Program-made: the position numbers and the translations under genes
Assembly: GCF_033958435.1 (NCBI RefSeq)
Contig: NC_134138.1
Span: forward strand, 178,048,798-178,112,797
From: Carettochelys insculpta
Lineage: Eukaryota; Chordata; Testudines; Carettochelyidae
Direction of reading: 5' to 3'
DNA: 64,000 nt
The notes under the pieces: generated by a model
Told to the model about the DNA's origin: nothing
The model's database searches: none
What the model saw: only the letters and a program-made list of their open reading frames with translations
Part shown: positions 12,355 to 53,391 of the stretch, piece after piece
Layout: every line of letters starts with the position of its first letter
Position numbering within the stretch: the stretch's first letter is position 1

Positions 12355-12792
12355 ATTGGGCTCATCTACATTAGCCTCTTCTTTGAAGGGGGCGTGGTAG
12401 TCAGCCCGAGTGGGGAACAGCAATAAGGTGCTGCAATGCATATGCAGCACCTCTTTAGGCTAATTTTTGCAATACCAACTTCAAAGTTGATAACTTCGAA
12501 GTGCCGTCAAGCCATGTAGCCATGAGCACTTCAAAGAACCCATGCAATGTCGGAAGTGCCCTTACTCCCAAAAGTTTGGGAGTAAGGGCACATCAAAGTT
12601 GTGTGGGTACTTCCAAGTGCCCGTGGCTACATGGCTTGGCGGCGCTTTGAAGTTATCAACTTCAAAGTTGGTGTGGCAAAAATTAGCCTAATGAGGTGCT
12701 GCATATGCATTGCAGCACCTTATTGCTATTCCCCACTCTGGCTGGCTACCATGCCCCCTTCGAAGAAGAGTGCTAGTGTAGACAAGTCCATT
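12355..12792. mobile_element. Palindromic Harbinger MITE (family B), TSD ATT
   Basis: The element spans 12358-12789 between two ATT trinucleotides. Ends are GGGCTCATCTACATTAGC and GCTAGTGTAGACAAGTCC. The two halves are near inverse copies: CTTCTTTGAAGGGGGCGTGGTAG pairs with CTACCATGCCCCCTTCGAAG, and GGTGCTGCAATGCATATGCAGC pairs with its inverse near 12700. The centre is the hairpin CTCCCAAAAGTTTGGGAG. It carries no coding capacity. Confidence 0.88.
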
Positions 12793-23757: not shown

Positions 23758-24187
23758 CATGGCTATGTCTACACTAGTCCAAAACTTCGAAATGGCCATG
23801 CAAATGGCCATTTTGAAGTTTACTAATGAAGCACTGAAATACGTATTCAGCATCTTATTGGAATGCCGGCAGCCGCGGCACTTCAAAATTGATGCAGCTC
23901 ACCGCCACATGGCTCATCCAGACGGGGGTCCTTTTCGAAAGGACCCCACCAACTTCAAAATCCCCTTATTCCTATTTACTGATAGGAATAAGGGGATTTC
24001 AAAGTTGCCGGGGTCTTTTTGAAAAGGAGCCCCATCTAGACAAGCTGCGTAGCAGCGAGCCACGGCAATTTTGAAGTGCTGTGGCTGCCAGCATGCTAAT
24101 GAGGCGCTGAATATGTATTTCAGCGCTTCATGAGTAAACTTCGAAATGGCCATTTCGAAGTTTTGGGCTAGTGTAGACACAGCCAAT
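23758..24187. mobile_element. Palindromic Harbinger MITE (family A)
   Basis: The element is 23761-24184: GGCTATGTCTACACTAG... to ...CTAGTGTAGACACAGCC, flanked by CAT and AAT (one mismatch). It is a near-perfect long hairpin: AACTTCGAAATGGCCATGCAAATGGCC at the left, its inverse at the right, and a centre of GGGGATTTTGAAGTTGG..CTTATTCCTATTTACTGATAGGAATAAG. The in-frame protein-like readings on both strands only mirror the palindrome. Confidence 0.9.
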
Positions 24188-28025: not shown

Positions 28026-28472
28026 GGCTGTGTCTACACTAACACCTTCCTTCAAAGGAAAGATGGTAAGTAGGGTGTTGGGAGTTTACTAATGAAGTGC
28101 TGTGCTGCATATGCAGAACTTCATTAAACAAATTCCCCCCCGAGGCAACTTCAAAGTTTTAAATTTCAAAGTACCGGCTCGCATCTAGCCGTGGCTCACC
28201 CGCCAGTACTTCCAAGTGCCAGGGCAACTTCGAAGTCCCTTTATTCCTCCAATCAGCAGATAGGAATAAGGGGATTTTGAAGTTCCTGGGGTCCTTTCAA
28301 AAAGGACCCTGTCTGGACGAGCCACGTGGCAGCAGAACACGGCAATTTCGAAGAGCCGCAGCTGGTGGCATGCTATGAGGCGCTGAATATGCATTTCAGC
28401 GTCTCATTAGTAATCTTCGAAATGGTCATTTGCATGACTATTTTGAAGATTTGGGCTCATGTAGACACAGAC
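28026..28472. mobile_element. Chimeric Harbinger MITE (left family B, right family A)
   Basis: The left part, GGCTGTGTCTACACTAAC..GGTGTTGGGAGTTTACTAATGAAGTGCTG...GAGGCAACTTCAAAG, follows the family B layout seen at 52989. From about 28200 on, TTCGAAGTCCC..TTATTCC..GATAGGAATAAGGGG..CAAATGAC..GTGTAGACACAGAC follows family A. The flanking triplets (TAA left, ATT right) do not match, unlike most other copies. Confidence 0.75.
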
Positions 28473-29139: not shown

Positions 29140-29761
29140 TATAGCTGTGTCTACACTTGCATTCCTCTTTCTAAAGAGGTATGTAAATGAGGTAAATCAA
29201 AATGCAAATGATACAAATTAGCATACCCACCACCTCATTTGCATATATTTATTTCAAAATAGCTTCTTTTAAAAGAAGAAAACCAGCATAGACACTGCTC
29301 TTTCGAAAGTAAACCCCATCTTCGAAAGAATCCTTCTTCCCTTTCTACACAGGCCATTTCCTTGGGAAGTGGCATGCTAATACATGGAGCGAAAGATGCT
29401 AATGAGGCACAGATGCAAATTATCTGCACCTCATTAGCATACCATCACATGATTTGGAGTCTGGAAGACTGGAAGACTCCAAAACACCATGTAGAAGCGT
29501 GGCTCTGGGGGAGCTTCTGGAAGGAAGTCCTTCTTCTGGAGGCCCCTTCTTCCCAAAAATTTTTCCAGAAGACCCCCCTCCAGGGGGCCACACTTCTAAA
29601 TGGCGTTTTGGAGTAAAGAAGAACGGTCTTCCAGACTCCAAATCTTGTGACCATATGCTAATGAGGCATGGGGAATTTGCATCCATGCCTCATTAGCATA
29701 TTTCGGGCCATGTATTACCATGCCACTTTCGAAAAAAGTGGCCTGTATAGAAACAGCCTAT
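29140..29761. mobile_element. Palindromic Harbinger MITE (family C), TSD TAT
   Basis: The element is 29143-29758, from AGCTGTGTCTACACTTGCATTCC to GGCCTGTATAGAAACAGCC, with TAT on both sides. It contains nested inverted pairs: CTAATGAGGCACAGATGCAAAT with ATTTGCATCCATGCCTCATTAG, and GGAGTCTGGAAGAC with GTCTTCCAGACTCC. The four 64-88 codon frames at 29420-29696 on both strands are shadows of this palindrome. Confidence 0.85.
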
Positions 29762-30193: not shown

Positions 30194-33106
30194 TCATAGA
30201 AGAGTAGGACTGGAAGGGACCTCGAGAGGCCATCGAGTCCAGCCCCCTGCCCTCATGGCAGGACCAAGCATTTTCCAGACCATCCCTGAAAGCCATCCAT
30301 CCAACCTCTTCTTAAATAGCTCCAGTGATGGAGATTCTACCACCTCCCTTGGCAATTCGTTCCAGTGTTTGATCACCCTGACAGTTAGGAACTTTTTCCT
30401 AATGTCCAACCTGAACCTCCCCTGCTGCAATTTCAGTCCATTGCCTCTTGTTCTATCCTCAGAGGCAAGGAAGAACAAGTTCCCTTTTAAAAACCTGAAA
30501 ACTGCTATCATGTCCCCACTCAATCTTCTCTTTTCCAAACTAAACAAGCCCAATTCTTTCAGCCTTTCTTCATAGGTCATGCTCTCTAGACCTTTGATCA
30601 TTCTCGTTGCTCTCCTCTGGACCCTCTCCAATTTCTTCACATCCTTCCTGAACTGCGGTGCCCAGAACTGGACACAATACTCCAGCTGAGGCCTAACCAG
30701 CGCAGAGTAGAGCAGGAGAATGACTTCTCGTGTCTTGTTTACGACACACCTGTTAATGCATCCCAGAATCATGTTTGCCTTTTTCGCAACAGCATCACAC
30801 TGTTGACCCATATTTAGCTTGTGGTCCACTTTAACCCCCAGATCCCTTTCTGCTGTACTCATTCGTAGGCAGTCCTTTCCCATTCTGTATGTGTGACACT
30901 GATTGTTCCTTCCTAAGTGGAGCACTTTGCATTTGTCCTTATTAAACTTCATCCTGTTTACCTCAGCCCATTTCTCCAGTTTATCCAGATCCTTTTGAAT
31001 TATGACCCTATCCTCCAAAGAAGTTGCAACCCCTCCCAGCTTGGTATCATCTGCAAACTTAGTAAGTGTACTTTCTATGTCAATATCTAAATCGTTAATG
31101 AAGATATTGAACAGAACCGGTCCTAAAACAGACCCCTGTGGAACCCCACTAGTTATACTTTTCCAGCCGGATTGAAAACCATTAAAAACTACTCTCTGAG
31201 TATGGTTATCCAGCCAGTTGTTCACCCACCTTATAGTAGCCCCATCTAAGTTGTATTTGCATAGTTTACTGATAAGTATATTATGTGAGACCGTGTCAAA
31301 TGCTTTACTGAAGTCTAGGTATACCACATCCACTGCTTCTCCCTTATCCACAAGACTCGCTATTCTATCAAAGAAAGCTATTAGATTGGTTTGACATGAT
31401 CTGTTTTTAACAAAGCCATGCTGGCTGTTCCCTAGCACCTTACCACCTTCCAAATGCTTGCAGATGATTTCTTTAATGACCTGCTCCATTATCTTTCCTG
31501 GCACAGAAGTTAAGCTGACTGGCCTGTAGTTTCCCGGGTTATTCTTGTTCCCCTTTTTATAAATGGGTACTATATTTGTCCTTTTCCAGTCTTCTGGAAT
31601 CTCTCCCGTCTCCCAGGATTTACCAAAAATGATTGCTAAAGGCTCAGATACCTCTTCTATCAGCTCTTTGAGGATTCTAGGATGCATTTCATCAGGCCCT
31701 GGTGATTTGCAGACATCTAATTTTTCTAAGTAAATTTTAATTTGCTCTTTTCTTATTTCAACTTCTAAGCCTACCCCTTTTTCGCTAGCATTCTCTATGT
31801 CAGGCATTCCTTCAGATTTCTCAGTGAAGACCGAACCAAAGAAATCATTAAACATTTCTGCCATTTCCAAATTCCCTGTTACTGTTCCTCCCTCCTCACT
31901 TACCAATGGCCCTACCCTCTCCTTAGTCTTCCTCTTGTTACCAATGTATTTGTAAAATGCCTTCTTGTTTCCCTTTATGCTTGTAGTTAGCTTGAGCTCA
32001 TTTTGTGCCTTAGCCTTTATAATCTTGCTCCTGCATGCTCGTGTTGTTTGCCTATATTCATTCTTTGTAATTTGTCCTAGTTTCCATTTCTTATAAGATT
32101 CCTTTTTTATTTTGAGATCATGCAAGATCTCCTGGTTAAGCCAAGGCAGTCTTTTACCATGTTTTCTATCTTTCCTACACAGGGGGATAGCTTGCTTTTG
32201 GGCCCTTAATAATGTCCCTTTGAAAAACTGCCAACTCTCCTCAGCCGTTTTTCCCCTCAGTTTAGCTTCCCATGGGACCTTACCTACCAGCTATCTGAGT
32301 TTACCAAAATCTGCCTTCCTGAAATCCATTATCTCTATTGTACTGTTTTCCCTTCTACCCTTCCTTAGAATTGTGAACTCTATGATTTCATGATCACTTT
32401 CACCCAAGCATCCTTCCACTTTCAAATTCTCAATAATTTCCTCCCTATTTGTTAAGATTAAATCTAGAACAGCTTCCCCTCTGGTAGCTTTTTCAACCTT
32501 TTGGAATAAAAAGTTGTCTGCAATGCAATCCAAGAATTTATTGGACAGTCTGTCCCCTGCTGTATTAGTTTCCCAACATATACCTGGATAGTTGAAGTCC
32601 TCCAGCACCACAAAATTCTGGGCCCTGGATGATTTTGTTAGCTGTTTAAAGAAAGCCTCATCTACCTCTTCCACCTGGCTAGGGGGCCTGTAGTAGACTC
32701 CAAGTAGGACCTTGTTTTTAACTCCTCTGAGTCTAACCCAGAGACTTTCAACCCATCCATCTCCTTCGTCCATCTCCACCTCTGTCCAAGCGTGTACATT
32801 TTTAATACACAAGGCAACACCTCCTCCCTTCTTTCCCTATCTGTCCTTCCTAAGCAGGCTGTACCCTTCAATACCAACATTCCAGTCATGAGTATTATCC
32901 CACCAAGTTTCTGTGATGCCAACGATATCATAGTTGTATTCGTTTATTAGTACTTCCAATTCTTCTTGTTTATTTCCCATACTTCTTGCATTTGTATATA
33001 GGCATCTCAGATATTGATTTGGTCTTGCCTCCCAGTTTTGCCCTGGCCCTCTTTTTACTCTCCCAGTGTAGCCCATACTCCCTCCCATTTCAAATTCATC
33101 TCCCAT
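30194..33106 (-). pseudogene. CR1 ORF2: endonuclease plus reverse transcriptase, two in-frame TAG stops
   Basis: One reading frame runs from the ATG at 33106 to the stop at 30194, about 971 codons, interrupted only by TAG at 32837-32839 and TAG at 32291-32293. The N-terminal APE-like endonuclease shows YTNARSMGNKQEEL, IVGITETWWD with the catalytic Glu, [18 protein letters not shown] and ESDHEI. In EDFN the usual Gly of GDFN is Glu. The RT part is open for 643 codons (30194-32125): SPGPDEMHP (residue 141), NYRPVSLT (199), LDFSKAFD (270), [10 protein letters not shown] (327) and the catalytic FADD (357). The C-terminus ends with a [15 protein letters not shown] motif. Target-primed reverse transcription is the family's role. 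The intact RT stretch and so few lesions imply a recent insertion, but the endonuclease stops should prevent a complete product. Confidence 0.95.
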
Positions 33107-33159
33107 GTATTCATGCTGTCCACTTACATGCAGGCTTTGCTCCCCTGCCCCTGTCGATC

Positions 33160-33926
33160 CTAGTTTAAAGCCTTCCTCACTAGGTTAGCCAGCCTGTGTC
33201 TGAATATGGTCTTCCCCCTCCTCGAAAGGTGAATGCCATCTCTGCCTAGCAGTCCTTCCCAGAAAAGGATCCCGTGGTCAAAGAAACCAAAGCCTTCCTG
33301 GCGACACCATCTACGCAACCAAGCATTCACCTCTAGCATACACCTGTCTCTGCCTGGGCCCCTACCTCTGACAGGCAGGATTGAAGAGAATACCCCCTGT
33401 GCCCCAAACTCCCTGACCCGTGCTCCCAGAGCCCTGAAGTCACTCTTGACCTGCTCAGCGTCACACCTCACAGTATCATTAGTGCCCACATGGATGAGAA
33501 GCATGGGATAGTAGTCAGAGGGCCGGATAATCCTTGACAATGCCTGCGTAACATCTCGGATACGGGCCCCCGGGAGGCAGCAGACCTCCCGAGAGGAAAT
33601 GTCAGGGCGACAGATGGGCGCCTCCATCCCTCTCAGAAGAGAGTCTCCAACCACCACTACTCTACGTTTCCTTCTCGCAGGGGTGGCAGTAGACTTCCCA
33701 GCCTTGGGGGTACGAGGCTTCTCCTCGTCGTATGGGGTAATTCTTGGTCTCCTGTATCGAGTACAGCATAACGGTTTTCCAGTACCACGGTGGGAGGGTT
33801 CTGAGCAGGGGTGGGACACAGCCTGCTGCAAGAAGTAACCAGCTGCCAGTGTCCACCCTGGTCCACCTCCTCCAGTGGTTTATCAGCCGTCCTCTGCACT
33901 GCGACAGTTACCTCCGCAGTCTCCAC
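33160..33926 (-). pseudogene. CR1 ORF1 with SGNH/GDSL esterase-like domain, frameshifted
   Basis: Two overlapping minus-strand frames share one protein. The upstream part (from the ATG at 33926: VDQGGHWQ, PPTVVLENRYAVLDTGDQE) must switch frame near 33740-33760 to continue as ITPYDEEKPRTPKAG. From there a 223-codon frame ends at 33160. It carries VVVVGDSLLRGME (SGNH block I, catalytic Ser), HVGTNDT (block III), and GRDGIHLSRRG with the D..H block V. CR1 ORF1 proteins are known to carry such an esterase-like domain. ORF1 ends 54 bp before the ORF2 ATG at 33106. The single frameshift lies outside the esterase fold, so the domain itself is intact as read. Confidence 0.88.
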
Positions 33927-34578: not shown

Positions 34579-35264
34579 CCTGGCTATGTCTACACAAGCC
34601 AAAAACTTTGAAATGGCCATGCAAATGGCCGTGTCTACATAAGCCAAAAACTTCCAAATGGACCCCGCTTACTTCGAAGTCCCCTTATTCCTATAAGTGA
34701 TAGGTGATATAAGTGATCATGTTTATATCACTCATGTTTATATCACTCATGATATAAGTGATATGTTTGTGCATAATTTAAAGACTGGTTGTTCAGCATA
34801 AGGATCTCATCAAATGATTTACAGGGGCCGTGTCTACACGAGCCAAAAACTTCGAAATGGCCATGCAAATGGCCATTTTGAAGTTTACTAATGAAGCGCT
34901 GAAACACATATTGAGCGCCTCATTAGCATGCGGGCGGCCGCGGCACTTCAAAATTGACGCGGCTTGCCGCCGCGCGGCTCATCCAGACGGGGTTCCTTTT
35001 CGAAAGGACCCCGCCTACTTCGAAGTCCCCTTATTCCTATGAGCAGATAGGAATAAGGGGACTTCGAAGTAGGCGGGGTCCTCTCGAAAAGGAGCCCCGT
35101 CTGGATGAGCCGCGCGGCGGCGAGCCGCGTCAATTTCGAAGTGCCGCGGCCGCCCGCATGCTAATGAGGCGCTCAATATGTATTTCAGCGCTTCATTAGT
35201 AAACTTCGAAATGGACATTTGCATGGCCATTTCGAAGTTTTTGGCTCGTGTAGACACGGCCCCT
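34579..35264. mobile_element. Family A Harbinger MITE with internally rebuilt left half, TSD CCT
   Basis: GGCTATGTCTACACAAGCC at 34582 is preceded by CCT (34579-34581). GGCTCGTGTAGACACGGCC ending at 35261 is followed by CCT (35262-35264). This fits one original insertion. Between them, the left part is scrambled: a 47-bp left end, a second truncated left end starting CCGTGTCTACATAAGCC at about 34629, a core scrap ACCCCGCTTACTTCGAAGTCCCCTTATTCCTAT, and several ATATAAGTGAT words. A complete 436-bp hairpin copy follows at 34826-35261. See the palindrome entry for how the flank is involved. Confidence 0.75.
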
Positions 35265-35337
35265 GTAAATCATTTGATGAGATCCTTATGCTGAACTACC
35301 AGTCTTTAAATTATGCACAAACATATCACTTATATCA
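34750..35337. repeat. 588-bp near-perfect palindrome extending into flanking DNA
   Basis: Centre at 35043.5 with the six-base loop GAGCAG. The inner 436 bp is the MITE hairpin. Outside it, TGATATAAGTGATATGTTTGTGCATAATTTAAAGACTGG.. ATGATTTACAGG (34750-34825) is the inverse of 35262-35337 with a single mismatch. So 76 bp of non-transposon flank is also inverted, with exactly the same symmetry axis. Confidence 0.93.
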
Positions 35338-36098
35338 GAGCGATTGTAAACCAGAAATCATAGCTACAAACCGAAGTAATGTCTAAGCAAGAGCAGTGAA
35401 AGTATACTGCAATTTGTTCAAGTAAAAAGATAAATTATTTGTTTCAATATATATGTGATACAGAAAAAAAAAAACTACACAAATAAACTGTCCCCAAATG
35501 ATAGGGGACAAGGGCAAATGCTGCAAATTTAAATGAAAAAAGTCAGGTTAGTTTACAAGATAATGACAGTTATCACAGATGGAAGAATACATAGCTCCCA
35601 GCTGAATGCTAGCTACAATTTAAACCAGGAACTCCACTGACAGAGCTGATTACTAAAATTCTGAGGTAAAAAAATCCATAAAAATCATGAAAGAAAAATA
35701 TTAACTATTACCAGTTTTGAACTGGAAATCAATAATATATGAAATGTAGGTTTATCATGTGTGTGATGGAAGATAAATAGTAGTGAATGCATGACACAGA
35801 AGGAGACAGATAACAGGGGGATTAGAAAGAGAATTTCTGCATGAAATAGTAACCTTGTACTAAGCATGGATTTATATTTATGTTATAGGAACTAATTGCA
35901 ATAATTCAAACTCATTTTTTGGAGCCAATTTGTATGTGTGCTGAGCCATGTTTTTTAAAGTGTGGAATAAAATCAATATACAGGGTATATACACCTTTCC
36001 TTTTCCATCTCCTTTCATGGGATGGTTGATATCTCCACTATGTCTGGAGGAATGGACAAGACAAATGGGGAAGGACCTCTTCACCAGAGCATTTTCAC
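35338..36098. other. Intronic DNA, nothing recognised
   Basis: AT-rich sequence. No gene-like frame or repeat ends. Confidence 0.5.
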
Positions 36099-36540
36099 AA
36101 AGGCTATGTCTACACTAGTCCAAAACTTCAAAATGGCCATGCAAATGGCCATTTCGAAGTTTACTAATGAAGTACTGAAATACATATTCAGCGCCTCATT
36201 AGAATGCTGGCAGCGGCAGCACTTCGAAATTGATGTGGCTCACTGCCGCATGGCTCGTCCAGATGGGGTTCCTTTTCAGAAGGACCTTGGCATCTTCGAA
36301 ATCCCCTTATTCCTAACAGCAGATAGGAATAAGGGGATTTCAAAGTTGCCAGGGTCTTTTCGAAAAGGATCCCTGTCTGGACGAGCTGTGTGGCAGTGAG
36401 CCACGTCAATTTCGAAGTGCCGCAGCTGTCAGCATTCTAATGAGGCACTGAATATGTATTTCAGCGCTTCATTAGTAAGCTTCAAAATGGCCATTTGCAT
36501 GGCCATTTTGATGTTTTGGGGTAGTGTAGACATGGCCAAA
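36099..36540. mobile_element. Palindromic Harbinger MITE (family A), TSD AAA
   Basis: 36102-36537, GGCTATGTCTACACTAG to GTAGTGTAGACATGGCC, flanked by AAA. Hairpin centre at CCTTATTCCTAACAGCAGATAGGAATAAGG. Arms carry TTCGAAATTGATGTGGC and its inverse. Confidence 0.88.
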
Positions 36541-36631: not shown

Positions 36632-37014
36632 ATGGGCCGTGTCTACACTAGCCCAAAACGTCAAAATTGCCATGCAAATGGCCATTTCAAAGATTATTAA
36701 TGAAGTGCTGAAATACATACTCAGCTTCTCATTAGCATGTGGGCAGCCGCGGCACTTTGAAATTGCTGCGGCTTGCTGCTGCGTGGCTCGTCCAGGCAGG
36801 ATAGGAATAAGGGGATTTTGAAGTTCCTGGGGTCCTTTCGTAAAGGACCCCCCTGTCTGGATGAGCTGCACAACAGCGAGCTGCGGCAATTTTGAAGTAC
36901 TGTGGCCACCTGCATGCTAATGAGGTGCTGAATATATATTTCAGTGCTTCATTAGTAATCTTCAAAATTTGCATGGCCATTTTGAATTTTTGGGCTAGTG
37001 TAGACATAGCCATT
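36632..37014. mobile_element. Palindromic Harbinger MITE (family A), shorter copy
   Basis: 36635-37011, GGCCGTGTCTACACTAGCCC to GGGCTAGTGTAGACATAGCC, with flanks ATG and ATT. It has lost roughly 50 bp of the left-of-centre region: the first 36.8 kb CGTCCAGGCAGG runs directly into GATAGGAATAAGGGG. Confidence 0.85.
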
Positions 37015-40525: not shown

Positions 40526-42155
40526 TTACAGTGTGGGTGGGGAGGACATTCCTGTATGCTGTGGGCCAGGGGATCCTAAACTGGGACAGGGGTGGGCAGG
40601 GGCCTGAATTGGGAGGTGGTGGGCGGGGGATCCTGAACTGGGAAGGTCACTTGGGCTAGGGGGTTGTGGGCTGAGAGCTGCTCCGGGAACATCTTCCATG
40701 TGCACGAGCTCCATGGTGGGGCTAGGACAGGGTGGGGAGCACTGGGAGGTAGGGTGGGATGGGAGTGGGGGCATCGGTGTGGGGTGGGGGCCTCTGTGGG
40801 AGGTGGAGGGTGTGCAGGGGCCTTTGTGGGGGGAGCTCTGCAAGGGACCAAGGTGGGCAGGCAGCTGGGAGGTGTGCGTGTGGAGGGCCAGGAGCCATGC
40901 CAGGTTGCCCATGCTGCTCATGTGCTCCTGCAGAGTCCGTGGATGCCCTCAAGGTGGGACATGAGCCGGTCCCAGGCCTCCCTCTGCTATACCAGGTTGG
41001 CCTCCTCCAGCTGGAGGCAGCATTCCATAAGCTGTGTCTGGTGGAGGCTGGTGGGGTCATCCCCCGTGCGCCACTGTGACCGTTGGCTGCGCGCCCGGCA
41101 TGTTGGTGCAGCTGCAGGGGTCTGGCCCCTGTTGAATGCCTCTGGGAACCACCGAGGCTGACGGGCTGTGTGGGCCCTTGCTCGCTGCACCTAGAAGGGG
41201 AGACAGATGGCATGTCAGTCCCCGAGCAGGACCCCATCCCCCGTCCTCCCCGGACTCTGTCCCCCTCAGGGCCCTGTCTCCCATGTCCCACCCAGGGCCT
41301 GGCCATGGTGGGCACAGCATCCCTGGGGCATCAGGTGCGCACAGGACATCCCCCCACAAGTGGAACCATCCCTGGGTGCGGGCCTGCCCATGGGTGTCCC
41401 ACTGGGCAACTGGGTGCCTGGAGCTGTCCACAGGTCTGGGTGCTGTGTGGAGCAGGCCAGTGGAAGGGGCACGTTGGGGGCTGTGGCCAGCCAGAGTGTC
41501 TAGCCCTGTACCTCCGGGCCTCTGCCCAGTCCACTGGTCAGGGTGCCAGCCCCACTGTGCACTTACCAGGGGGACCACGATGATCTCCGGCGATGCACGG
41601 CTCCCTGTGGCCTGGCTGGATGACCTATAGGGAATGTCTATGATGAGGTCACCCTCATCACTGGACCGCTCCAGGGTGGTGTCCACCCCCTGGCTTGGGC
41701 TGGCCAGTCCTGGCTCCTCCAGCCCGGGCTGGTCCGTGGAGGTGTCCAGGACAATTGTGGGCAGACAGCTGTCCCAGGGCCCCAAGATGCCGTGGAGCTC
41801 CCAATAGTAGGGGCAGATGGAGAGACCTGCCCCTGAGAACCCAGCCTCATCATAAACTTGGGCATAGGCCTGCCAGAGCTCCTTGACTTTGCTCTGGACT
41901 TGCTGTGGGATCCGCTCCAGGTGTCCTTGGCTGGAGAGTCCACGGGCCAGGTGGGTAAATGTGGTGGCATTCCTCCACTTGACCCCATCTCCCAGAGGAT
42001 CTCCTCCTCCTTCCAGAGGCCCAGGAGGTCTCTACGTTTGGGGTCCATCCAGAAGGGGCCCCTTTTCTTCTTTTCTGGGATGGGCTCCTGGGATCCCTGT
42101 GAGGGCTCTGGGGGGGGGGGCCCTGGGTTTCGGGGGGCTGCCGGGCGCTGGCCAT
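40526..42155 (-). pseudogene. Harbinger Myb/SANT-like DNA-binding protein, decayed
   Basis: Minus strand. The MDPKRRDLLGLWKEEEILWEM helix-one region (42048 downward) must shift frame to continue as ATTFTHLARGLSSQGHLERIPQQVQSKVKELWQAY, a Myb/SANT-like trihelix with the expected G-x-x-R-T-P-x-x-V-x-x-K-x-K-x-L pattern. CPYYWELHGILGPWD and an acidic SSDEGDLIID stretch follow. The exon ends at 41567 before GTAAGT. TTCTAG precedes 41190, where exon 2 resumes (QRARAHTARQPRWF, then a QLEEANLV heptad-like region interrupted by a TAG at 40987). At least one frameshift and one stop inactivate it. The protein normally accompanies the transposase and binds the termini. The C-terminal extent to 40526 is approximate. 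Confidence 0.8.
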
Positions 42156-47624: not shown

Positions 47625-48297
47625 CTTTGGTCTAAAAATAATGAATAATTTAGATTAAATTCTTCTCTTATTTACCAGAGTTTGGGAAAAATTACATCCA
47701 TGTATCTAAAGATACATAGAGGGTAAAATCCTGGCCTCACTGAATTCAGCAGAAGTTTTGCCATTGACTTAAATAGAGTAACAGTTTCACTCAGCATGTG
47801 TTAACTCTCTTTGCTGTCTTTTGAACTGCCTGGATGAAAATACTTTGTCTATTAACAGTTTTTTTACATTTCCAAGAATTTGGTTTATTGAAGAAAACTC
47901 TGACTGTATTTGCAGTTGGTTATTTGTCGTGACATTTTGTTTTATAAAGTTAAGAATAATAATAAAGAAAGGTCACCTGTAAAATAAAACTGCATACAAG
48001 TGAATGTCTCTGAAAAAATATCAAAACATTAAAAACTGATATTCTTCTTATGGAATATTAGAAAGGAAGAAATATTGTAGAGAGACTCATGGCTTTGTGT
48101 CATGAAGGGAATTCTGTTGCTTCCCACTTGTTCAATATCTTCCACAGCTTGTAGGTTCTGTCAAATGAGGACACACCATGTAGAAAGATTCAATTCACAC
48201 TGAAACGCTCATTTGTTTTAAATACTGTTATGACAATATCAAAATTGTCATAATTTCTTATAGCCTGTTTCAAAACAATAACAGGTATATTGCTCAT
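47625..48297. other. Intronic DNA with a possible ancient repeat
   Basis: CAGCAGAAGTTTTGCCATTGACTTAAATAGAG at about 47750 resembles an old amniote repeat containing 'GTTTTGCCATTGACTTCAATGG'. The word TCAGTGGGAGTTGTCCCATTGATG recurs near 56290. Class uncertain. Confidence 0.35.
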
Positions 48298-48739
48298 AGT
48301 GGCCGTGTCTACACGTGCCCCAAACTTCGAAATGGCCATGCAAATGGCCATTTCGAAGTTTACTAATGAAGCGCTGAAATGCATATTCACTGCTTCATTA
48401 GCATGTGGGCAGCCGCGGCGCTTCGAAATTGACGCGGCTTGCCGCCGCGCATCTCGTCCAGATGGGGCTCCTTTTCAAAAGGACCTCACCTACTTCGAAG
48501 TCCCCTTATTCCCATCTGCTCATGGGAATAAGGGGACTTCGAAGTAGGCGGGGTCCTTTCGAAAAGGAGCCCCGTCAGGACGAGATGCGCGGCGGCAAGC
48601 CGCGTCAATTTTGAAGCGCCACAGCTGCCCATATGCTAATGAAGTGCTGAATATGCATTTCAGCACTTCATTAGTAAACTGCGAAATGGCCATTTGCATG
48701 GCCATTTCGAAGTTTGGGGCTCGTGTAGATGTAGCCAGT
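48298..48739. mobile_element. Palindromic Harbinger MITE (family A), TSD AGT
   Basis: 48301-48736, GGCCGTGTCTACACGTGCCCC to GGGGCTCGTGTAGATGTAGCC, flanked by AGT on both sides. Long hairpin, centre CTTATTCCCATCTGCTCATGGGAATAAG. Both arms carry GCGCATCTCGTCC, a variant not seen in the other copies. Confidence 0.92.
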
Positions 48740-49373: not shown

Positions 49374-49815
49374 CATGGCTACGTCTACATGTGCCCCAAA
49401 CTTCGAAATGGCCATACAAATGGCCATTTCGAAGTTTACTAATGAAGCGCTGAAATGCATATTCAGTGCTTCATTAGCATGCGGGTGGCAGCGGCGCTTA
49501 GAAATTGACGCACCTTGCCACTGCGCGGTGCGTCCAGACGGGGCTGCTTTTCGAAAGGACGCCACCTACTTCGAAGTCCCCTTATTCCCATGAGCTCATG
49601 GGAATAAGGGGACTTCAAAGTAGGCGGGGCCCTTTCGAAAAGGAGCCCCGTCTGGACGCGCCACGCGGCGGCAAGGTGCGTCAATTTCGAAGTGCCGCTG
49701 CCGCCCGCATGCTAATGAAGCCCTGAATATGCATTTCAGCGCTTCATTAATAAACTTCGAAATGGCCATTTGCATGGCCATTTCGAAGTTTGGGGCACGT
49801 GTAGACACGGCCCAT
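49374..49815. mobile_element. Palindromic Harbinger MITE (family A), TSD CAT
   Basis: 49377-49812, GGCTACGTCTACATGTGCCCC to GGGGCACGTGTAGACACGGCC, flanked by CAT on both sides. Hairpin centre TTCCCATGAGCTCATGGGAA. Both arms carry TTGACGCACCTTGCC, diagnostic for this copy. Confidence 0.92.
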
Positions 49816-50644
49816 ATAGCTCAAACAGTAGACAAGTGATAATTTTTTATGATCATCATATTATTATTAATCATTATCATATCATTCAGCATATATTCCT
49901 GTTTTCTATTTAGCTAAAAGCTAAATGTAGTATTCATGCTAGAGATAATGAAATACTTTACATTCTATCAGTAAACGGGGGAGGATGTTAAACAGAACCT
50001 ATTAAAGTGAACTGTTTTTAAAATCTGCATAAGAAAATAACTTGAATCCTAGGTTATTTCAAGAATTGGCTGAAATGTTTTCTGAACCATTACTGCAATT
50101 TTAAACAAGTCTTACAACACTGGGGAAGATTTAGAGAACTTGGGGAGGGGGGGGAAGCTTTCTATGAATATTTTAACATGTTAAACTGTATAGCCCAGAA
50201 AATTAAGTGCCTGTTTATTGGAGATCAGTTTCAAGCAAGATCTTGAAAAGTTTGATATGGGACACAGTCAGTGAAGAACTGTAAAATGGTAACATAATTC
50301 ATGCCAATCAGCATGGCTTTATGGAAGAAATATCTTTTCAATCATTCAATACCACTTTTATTAGCCCAGAAATCTTGAGAAAGCTAACTGTGTTGACAGA
50401 ATATTTTGTAAGGTATTTATCTCAGAGGAAAAAATCGGATTGCAAAGTAGCTCCCTGTGTACCCCATATAGTCCTCACTTGCAAAAGGTTATAATGTTTC
50501 ATACAAAGCATGCCATATAAGGTACCATACGGAAAGCCGTGATTTGCTGAAAACTCAGTGTTCTGTCAAAATATGTATACTGTTATTCTGCATGAAGTTA
50601 TGAAATGTTTCTAAACAGTTGTTATTGAAATATGTTGTGAGTTC
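49816..50644. other. Intronic DNA, nothing recognised
   Basis: AT-rich sequence without gene-like frames. Confidence 0.5.
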
Positions 50645-52985: not shown

Positions 52986-53391
52986 TTTAGCTATGTCTAC
53001 ACTTGGCCCCTTCGAAGAAGGGGGCATGATAATCAGGGTGATGGGAGATTACTAATTAAGTCCTGCAATGAACATGCAGCACTTCATTAGGCTAATTCTA
53101 CCCCGCGGCAACTTCAAAGTGCTGGCAAGCTGTGTAGCCACGGGCTTCGAAGTGCCCGCTCTACTTCAAAGTGCCTTTATTCCCCAAAACTTTGAGGAGT
53201 AAAGGCACTTTGAAGTGCCCGCGGCTACACGGCATGCCTGCACTTCGAAATTTGACACTTCTAAGTTGCTGTGGGGGAGAATTTGCCTAATGAAGTGCTG
53301 TGTATTCATTGCATCACTTCATGAGCCATCTCCCATCACCCTGATTACCATGCCCCCTTTGAAGAAGTGGGCAAGTGTAGACATAGCCTTT
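52986..53391. mobile_element. Palindromic Harbinger MITE (family B), TSD TTT
   Basis: 52989-53388, AGCTATGTCTACACTTGGCCCCTTCGAAGAAGG to GAAGAAGTGGGCAAGTGTAGACATAGCC, flanked by TTT. The inverse arms meet at CCCCAAAACTTTGAGGAG. Layout matches 12358-12789. Confidence 0.88.

Follow-up and report, generated by a model that had tools for sequence, protein, structure and literature searches.

How the hairpin of a MITE could come to extend into the host DNA beside it is the question raised by one locus in the window, the whole 64,000-nt stretch of Carettochelys insculpta DNA that was analyzed. The locus contains a 588-bp palindrome (34750-35337) with two arms of 291 nt each (34750-35040 and 35047-35337), which differ from each other at 8 positions and contain no indels. 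A 6-nt loop, GAGCAG (35041-35046, plus strand), separates the arms and is in the orientation that is usual for the MITE family, as determined from the loop contexts. The symmetry axis lies at 35043.5. The inner 436 bp (34826-35261) consists of MITE sequence, and the outer 76 bp on each side consists of flank; MITE arm and flank are arranged around the same axis, with the inverted copy of the flank adjoining the fold-back repeat. Folding of the region 34740-35347 as single-stranded DNA gave -380 kcal/mol, compared with a mean of -83.5 (sd 5.1) for 20 shuffled sequences. The coordinates given in an earlier note, which had described a 588-bp palindrome with a six-base loop, its axis and the CCT sites, were all correct.

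We examined the flanking part of the palindrome by comparing 34750-34825 (minus strand), the putative copy, with the right host flank at 35262-35337 (plus strand), which starts with the CCT of the right target duplication. The two sequences matched in inverted orientation at 75 of 76 positions, and a match search of the window with 35262-35337 returned, besides the query itself, the inverted copy as the sole match at E <= 1e-3. As a control, the same 76-nt comparison was carried out at nine other site definitions (the focal element defined by its outer ends, five MITE copies and three other inverted repeats of the window), which gave 16-29 matches, and at 2000 random placements, which gave a mean of 19.6 and a maximum of 32. 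The inverted 76 bp of right-hand flank reported in the earlier note is thus present, at a level of identity that was not approached in the controls.

The MITE belongs to a family with several copies in the window that carry inverted ends and target duplications. We identified five other two-ended copies (23761-24184, 36102-36537, 36635-37011, 48301-48736 and 49377-49812) and one half copy (28227-28470). Three of the five two-ended copies are flanked by exact 3-bp target duplications (AAA, CAT and AGT), and the remaining two by duplications with one mismatch (CAT/AAT and ATG/ATT). A 3-bp duplication would presumably suit PIF/Harbinger, among others, and our guess at the identity of the family is Chompy, a named crocodilian family. 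Exact-pattern searches for relatives of the MITE gave 0 matches in viral contigs and 0 in prokaryote contigs, and Rfam at gathering scores gave 0 matches within the window. The two ends of the MITE are unlike: end A reads GGCTA in all five copies, and end B reads mostly GGC(C)G, being itself not uniform (C at site 4 in 4/6 and G at site 5 in 5/6). The copies were oriented partly by these end bases, which would be circular if used alone. The orientation of the loop (CAGCAG or GAGCAG) provides an independent reading, and it agrees with the A-to-B direction in 36102-36537, with the reversed ends in 48301-48736, where the loop is also reversed, and with the ends of the half copy. The loop is uninformative in the other copies, being symmetric in 49377-49812, different in 23761-24184 and missing from 36635-37011, so the independent check covers two two-ended copies and the half copy. 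Two copies in opposite orientation, 48296-48737 and 49376-49817, lie 638 nt apart and are 88% complementary over 442 nt; as a pair they possibly constitute a larger fold-back.

We investigated which end of the focal element is which. The insertion is bounded by a CCT target duplication, as had been proposed, with the left copy (34579-34581, plus strand) matching 35262-35264. The outer boundary therefore reads CCT/CCT. The inner boundary reads AGG/CCT: directly before 34826, at the start of the inner left arm, stands AGG, which is CCT in inverted complement. Next to the left CCT lies a 49-nt sequence (34582-34630, plus strand) that starts with GGCTA, as do all five other A ends, and that is the remnant of the original left (A) end; it differs from the inner left arm at 4/49 positions and from the right arm at 5/49. 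The original right arm (35047-35261, minus strand) has a B end with a GGCCG terminus, followed by CCT. At sites 4 and 5 the inner left arm (34826-35040, plus strand) is in the B state, and the outermost scrap and, at the corresponding end, all five other two-ended copies are in the A state. Taken together, the B-end bases and the AGG at 34826 indicate that the right side was copied in inverted orientation to give both the inner left arm and the flank that precedes it, and that, judged by its sequence, the inner left arm is a right arm by origin. What the earlier note had called a complete left arm at 34826 carries the right-hand (B) terminus and is not the left end by origin.

A tree of the arms grouped them by copy or subfamily and not by side, and A and B were not separated. 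The copy at 49377-49812 also paired its own arms, with values of 96/90 versus 92/89 for the focal pair. The tree is neutral on fold-back copying, neither supporting nor opposing it. Because it fails to separate A from B, the A/B argument rests on the two adjacent sites 4 and 5, supplemented by the flank and the target duplication. Four of the six copies, the focal one among them, have private bases that are mirrored between their arms (2, 1, 3 and 1 sites; 3 in 49377-49812 and 1 each in 48301-48736 and 36102-36537), and the other two have none. Such mirroring could reflect template copying from arm to arm, or merely different source elements. Bases found in the two focal arms only (sites 20 and 88) are not taken as proof, since three of the five other two-ended copies also mirror private bases; the presence of the site 20 base in the outer scrap is one more reason for not using them.

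We then analyzed the scar between the left remnant and the copied flank. Going leftward from the inverted flank, the scar consists of a filler, a core scrap, a B-type end and the A-end remnant. The filler (34692-34749, plus strand) consists of words that occur at the tip of the copied flank, some in direct and some in inverted orientation; it contains a 15-bp tandem repeat and opens with a TAT that it has in common with the core scrap. Within 34695-34749, 8-mers of the flank copies cover 41 of 55 bases, a level reached by none of 1000 shuffles; 9-, 10- and 11-mers each cover 13 of 55 bases, and 8, 1 and 0 of the 1000 shuffles, respectively, did as well. The filler was hence templated by flank adjacent to the junction, the pattern looked for as a mark of polymerase-theta end joining. 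The core scrap (34660-34694, plus strand), a piece of MITE core recognized by its complementarity, is 97% complementary to 35047-35081, ends at the loop-closing base and is joined to the B-type scrap by GG. Its presence in the left half agrees with the earlier note. It may represent the original left arm's end, in which case the break would lie at the hairpin tip, or it may be another short copy. The 35-nt B-type scrap (34627-34661, plus strand) starts with GGCCG, is 91% complementary to 35227-35261 and is joined through GGCC to the A remnant. The two truncated left ends previously described at this place are accordingly of two kinds: the sequence at 34582-34630 is a left end of the A type, and the scrap at 34627 carries the B terminus. 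The overlaps of 2-4 nt at the capture junctions (TAT, GG and GGCC) constitute microhomology; they were read off the alignments, with no chance control for such short overlaps. The letters of the locus establish how its parts are arranged, that the inner arm is of the B type, that a target duplication marks the outer boundary and that the filler is templated.

To describe the divergence between the arms, the 8 mismatches were assigned to the parts of the palindrome. The MITE arms contain 7 mismatches in 215 positions and the flank contains 1 in 76, and the two parts are alike in this respect (Fisher p = 0.69). Counted in 50-nt bins from loop to tip, the mismatches number 2, 2, 1, 2, 0 and 1, the last bin being 41 nt. 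Six of the 8 differences are transitions, three of which fit CpG decay. The arms of the five other copies differ at 19/215, 19/215, 26/215, 35/203 and 33/160 positions, and the focal arms are less diverged than those of each other copy (one-sided Fisher 0.012, 0.012, 0.0004, 1e-6 and 6e-8). The low and uniform divergence fits a copying of arm and flank together, after insertion.

The reading that we favor, with a probability of about 0.62, is that a break occurred in the MITE and that fold-back priming, copying through arm and flank, and error-prone capture by the left end followed. A MITE whose arms of 215 nt enclose a 6-nt loop and whose ends are unlike would have inserted with a CCT 3-bp duplication, and a later break would have occurred in its left half, probably close to the hairpin tip. 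The right-hand broken end, once single-stranded, would have folded back on itself at the loop of the MITE; synthesis primed by its 3' end would then have run outward along the right arm and across 76 bp of right flank, producing the inverted copy. The new strand would then have been released, have re-primed repeatedly on its own tip word, ATATAAGTGAT, and also on MITE core and end sequence, and have joined at GGCC to the left-hand piece, in which CCT has survived along with 49 nt belonging to the true left end. A single extending 3' end would leave the parts in the order observed, and polymerase-theta-like end joining fits the filler. The double-strand break as the start, the place of the break, the enzymes and a single event for all of the junctions are what we infer. 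The earlier note had proposed that the right half was copied in inverted form, together with its flank, in a fold-back event, and that proposal is supported by the CCT/CCT outer boundary as opposed to the AGG/CCT inner boundary, by the B-end inner arm, by the like divergence of flank and MITE parts and by the flank-tip words in the filler.

Fold-back capture with an error-prone step is an event class that is already known, and this locus appears to be a clear natural example of it in which a transposon hairpin was the seed. After an induced break in yeast, one end folds back at an inverted repeat and primes synthesis, and the copy is displaced and joined to the other end through 0-5 bp of microhomology, yielding a longer inverted repeat (PMC11724301). 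The steps of folding back, priming, displacement and capture described for these local fold-back inversions are the same as those proposed here. The yeast system has a 10-bp imperfect repeat, a 41-nt loop and an induced cut, and its inversions span about 2 to 150 bp, most of them under 14 (PMC11724301), whereas the turtle locus has a 6-nt loop and a compound filler, its copy takes in 76 bp of flank and as much as an entire MITE arm, and the locus is an inherited scar. Polymerase-theta scars in mutants of another organism contain iterated inserts that come mostly from one flank, with frequent errors; the reverse-complement inserts among them show that the primer and its template belonged to the same end, and the inserts average about 10 bp (PMC5068794). 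The filler resembles them in being iterated, drawn from one flank, imperfectly copied and partly in reverse-complement orientation, and the involvement of the enzyme here is putative. In contrast, a long hairpin arm was copied at this locus, and none was copied in the polymerase-theta cases described in the accessible part of that paper (PMC5068794). In a search of titles and abstract openings in the open-licence literature, no description of a MITE hairpin grown into its flank was found, which is weak evidence of absence.

The main rival to break, fold-back and capture is an inverted template switch made when a replication fork stalls at the MITE hairpin, an MMBIR-like process that would begin without a two-ended break. 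The nascent strand would jump to the opposite strand or to itself, copy arm and flank backwards and return through short switches, and the same anatomy is predicted. Template switches that create stems have been published (PMC8794818), and backward copying with microhomology joins has been proposed for repair-made inverted duplications at a fly inversion, according to the available portion of that paper, in which MITEs figure merely as an annotated class (PMC7584159). Likewise, in template-switch mutations a stem is made or repaired by a single event of reverse-complement copying, as would have happened here. The largest pattern named in the part of PMC8794818 available is up to 59 bp, whereas here a transposon hairpin extends into host DNA with a compound scar. 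In our judgement, the loss of most of the original left arm and the filler iterated on the tip of one flank suit end joining somewhat better than fork switching, and we regard the fork version as possible, though doubtful.

Less probable still, and in our estimation quite unlikely, is a hairpin-capped or dicentric intermediate, in which a larger inverted dimer would have rebroken 76 bp into the flank and rejoined the left piece. Fold-back with dicentrics has been described in yeast and human chromosomes, and these large fold-back inverted duplications resemble the locus in that intrastrand pairing follows a break and adjacent DNA is copied inverted (PMC3907307, PMC10164571). However, the published events involve kilobases and more via dicentric chromosomes, with human fold-back spacers of 766-70,466 bp, versus a local capture and a 6-nt loop here. 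A second break very nearby would also be required, and the short copied flank with its templated scar is explained more simply by displaced local synthesis.

The palindrome could also have arisen from a chimeric inverted read built into the contig, and palindromes of such a kind are typical of fold-back reads. However, near-identical arms would be expected from a fold-back read, and the arms differ at 8/291 positions; identical inverted arms with an abrupt end were not found. Private odd bases also occur on both arms (site 80 on the left, sites 47 and 181 on the right), and an artefact of reading or assembly leaves unexplained the compound scar with flank words beside a true left end and its CCT. 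The earlier note had kept this option open; the private changes on both arms make it unlikely, and we give it very little credence. A nested second MITE insertion, suggested by the two truncated ends to the left and the other copies within the window, or the landing of a MITE at the center of an older host palindrome, is hardly credible, since an insertion should have left a direct 3-bp duplication at the inner boundary, where AGG/CCT is found instead (with CCT/CCT outside), which speaks against both, and since the MITE arms and the flank have one axis and like divergence.

If break, fold-back and capture is the correct reading, the locus is a fossil of fold-back repair that can still be read, with a donor side, a copied strand, switch words and original boundaries that can be assigned, and it would show a route by which a MITE hairpin can spread symmetry into host DNA. 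A simple rule, namely the presence of inverted flank next to a MITE whose two ends are alike, could be used to count such events genome-wide. A broader suggestion is that hairpin MITEs are recurrent seeds of palindrome growth in the genome, with tip breaks copying flank outward and building long host palindromes, and with the same copying keeping the arms of the element alike; the mirrored private bases in three of the five other two-ended copies bear on it, and we consider it rather unlikely. We suggest no function for the palindrome.

Three other inverted repeats were observed in the window (12376-12770, 29342-29753 and 52990-53387); their complementarity is 83-88%, and their spacers measure 51 to 156 nt. 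None of the three has an inverted flank (24, 18 and 25 matches in 76, respectively), and 52990-53387 has ends similar to the MITE end (GCTATGTCTACAC).

The neighborhood was surveyed by a domain scan that covered 8 of 41 frames. A minus-strand frame of 324 codons at 41057-42031 gave a weak Myb/SANT-like match (PF13837, E 9.8e-05), its 23.1 bits lying below the curated cut-off of 27. Just to the left of the locus, at 30194-33879 on the minus strand, stop-to-stop frames were found with matches to PF00078 (reverse transcriptase), PF14529 (endonuclease) and PF13472 (GDSL-like), as would be seen in a broken non-LTR retrotransposon, probably of the CR1 kind.
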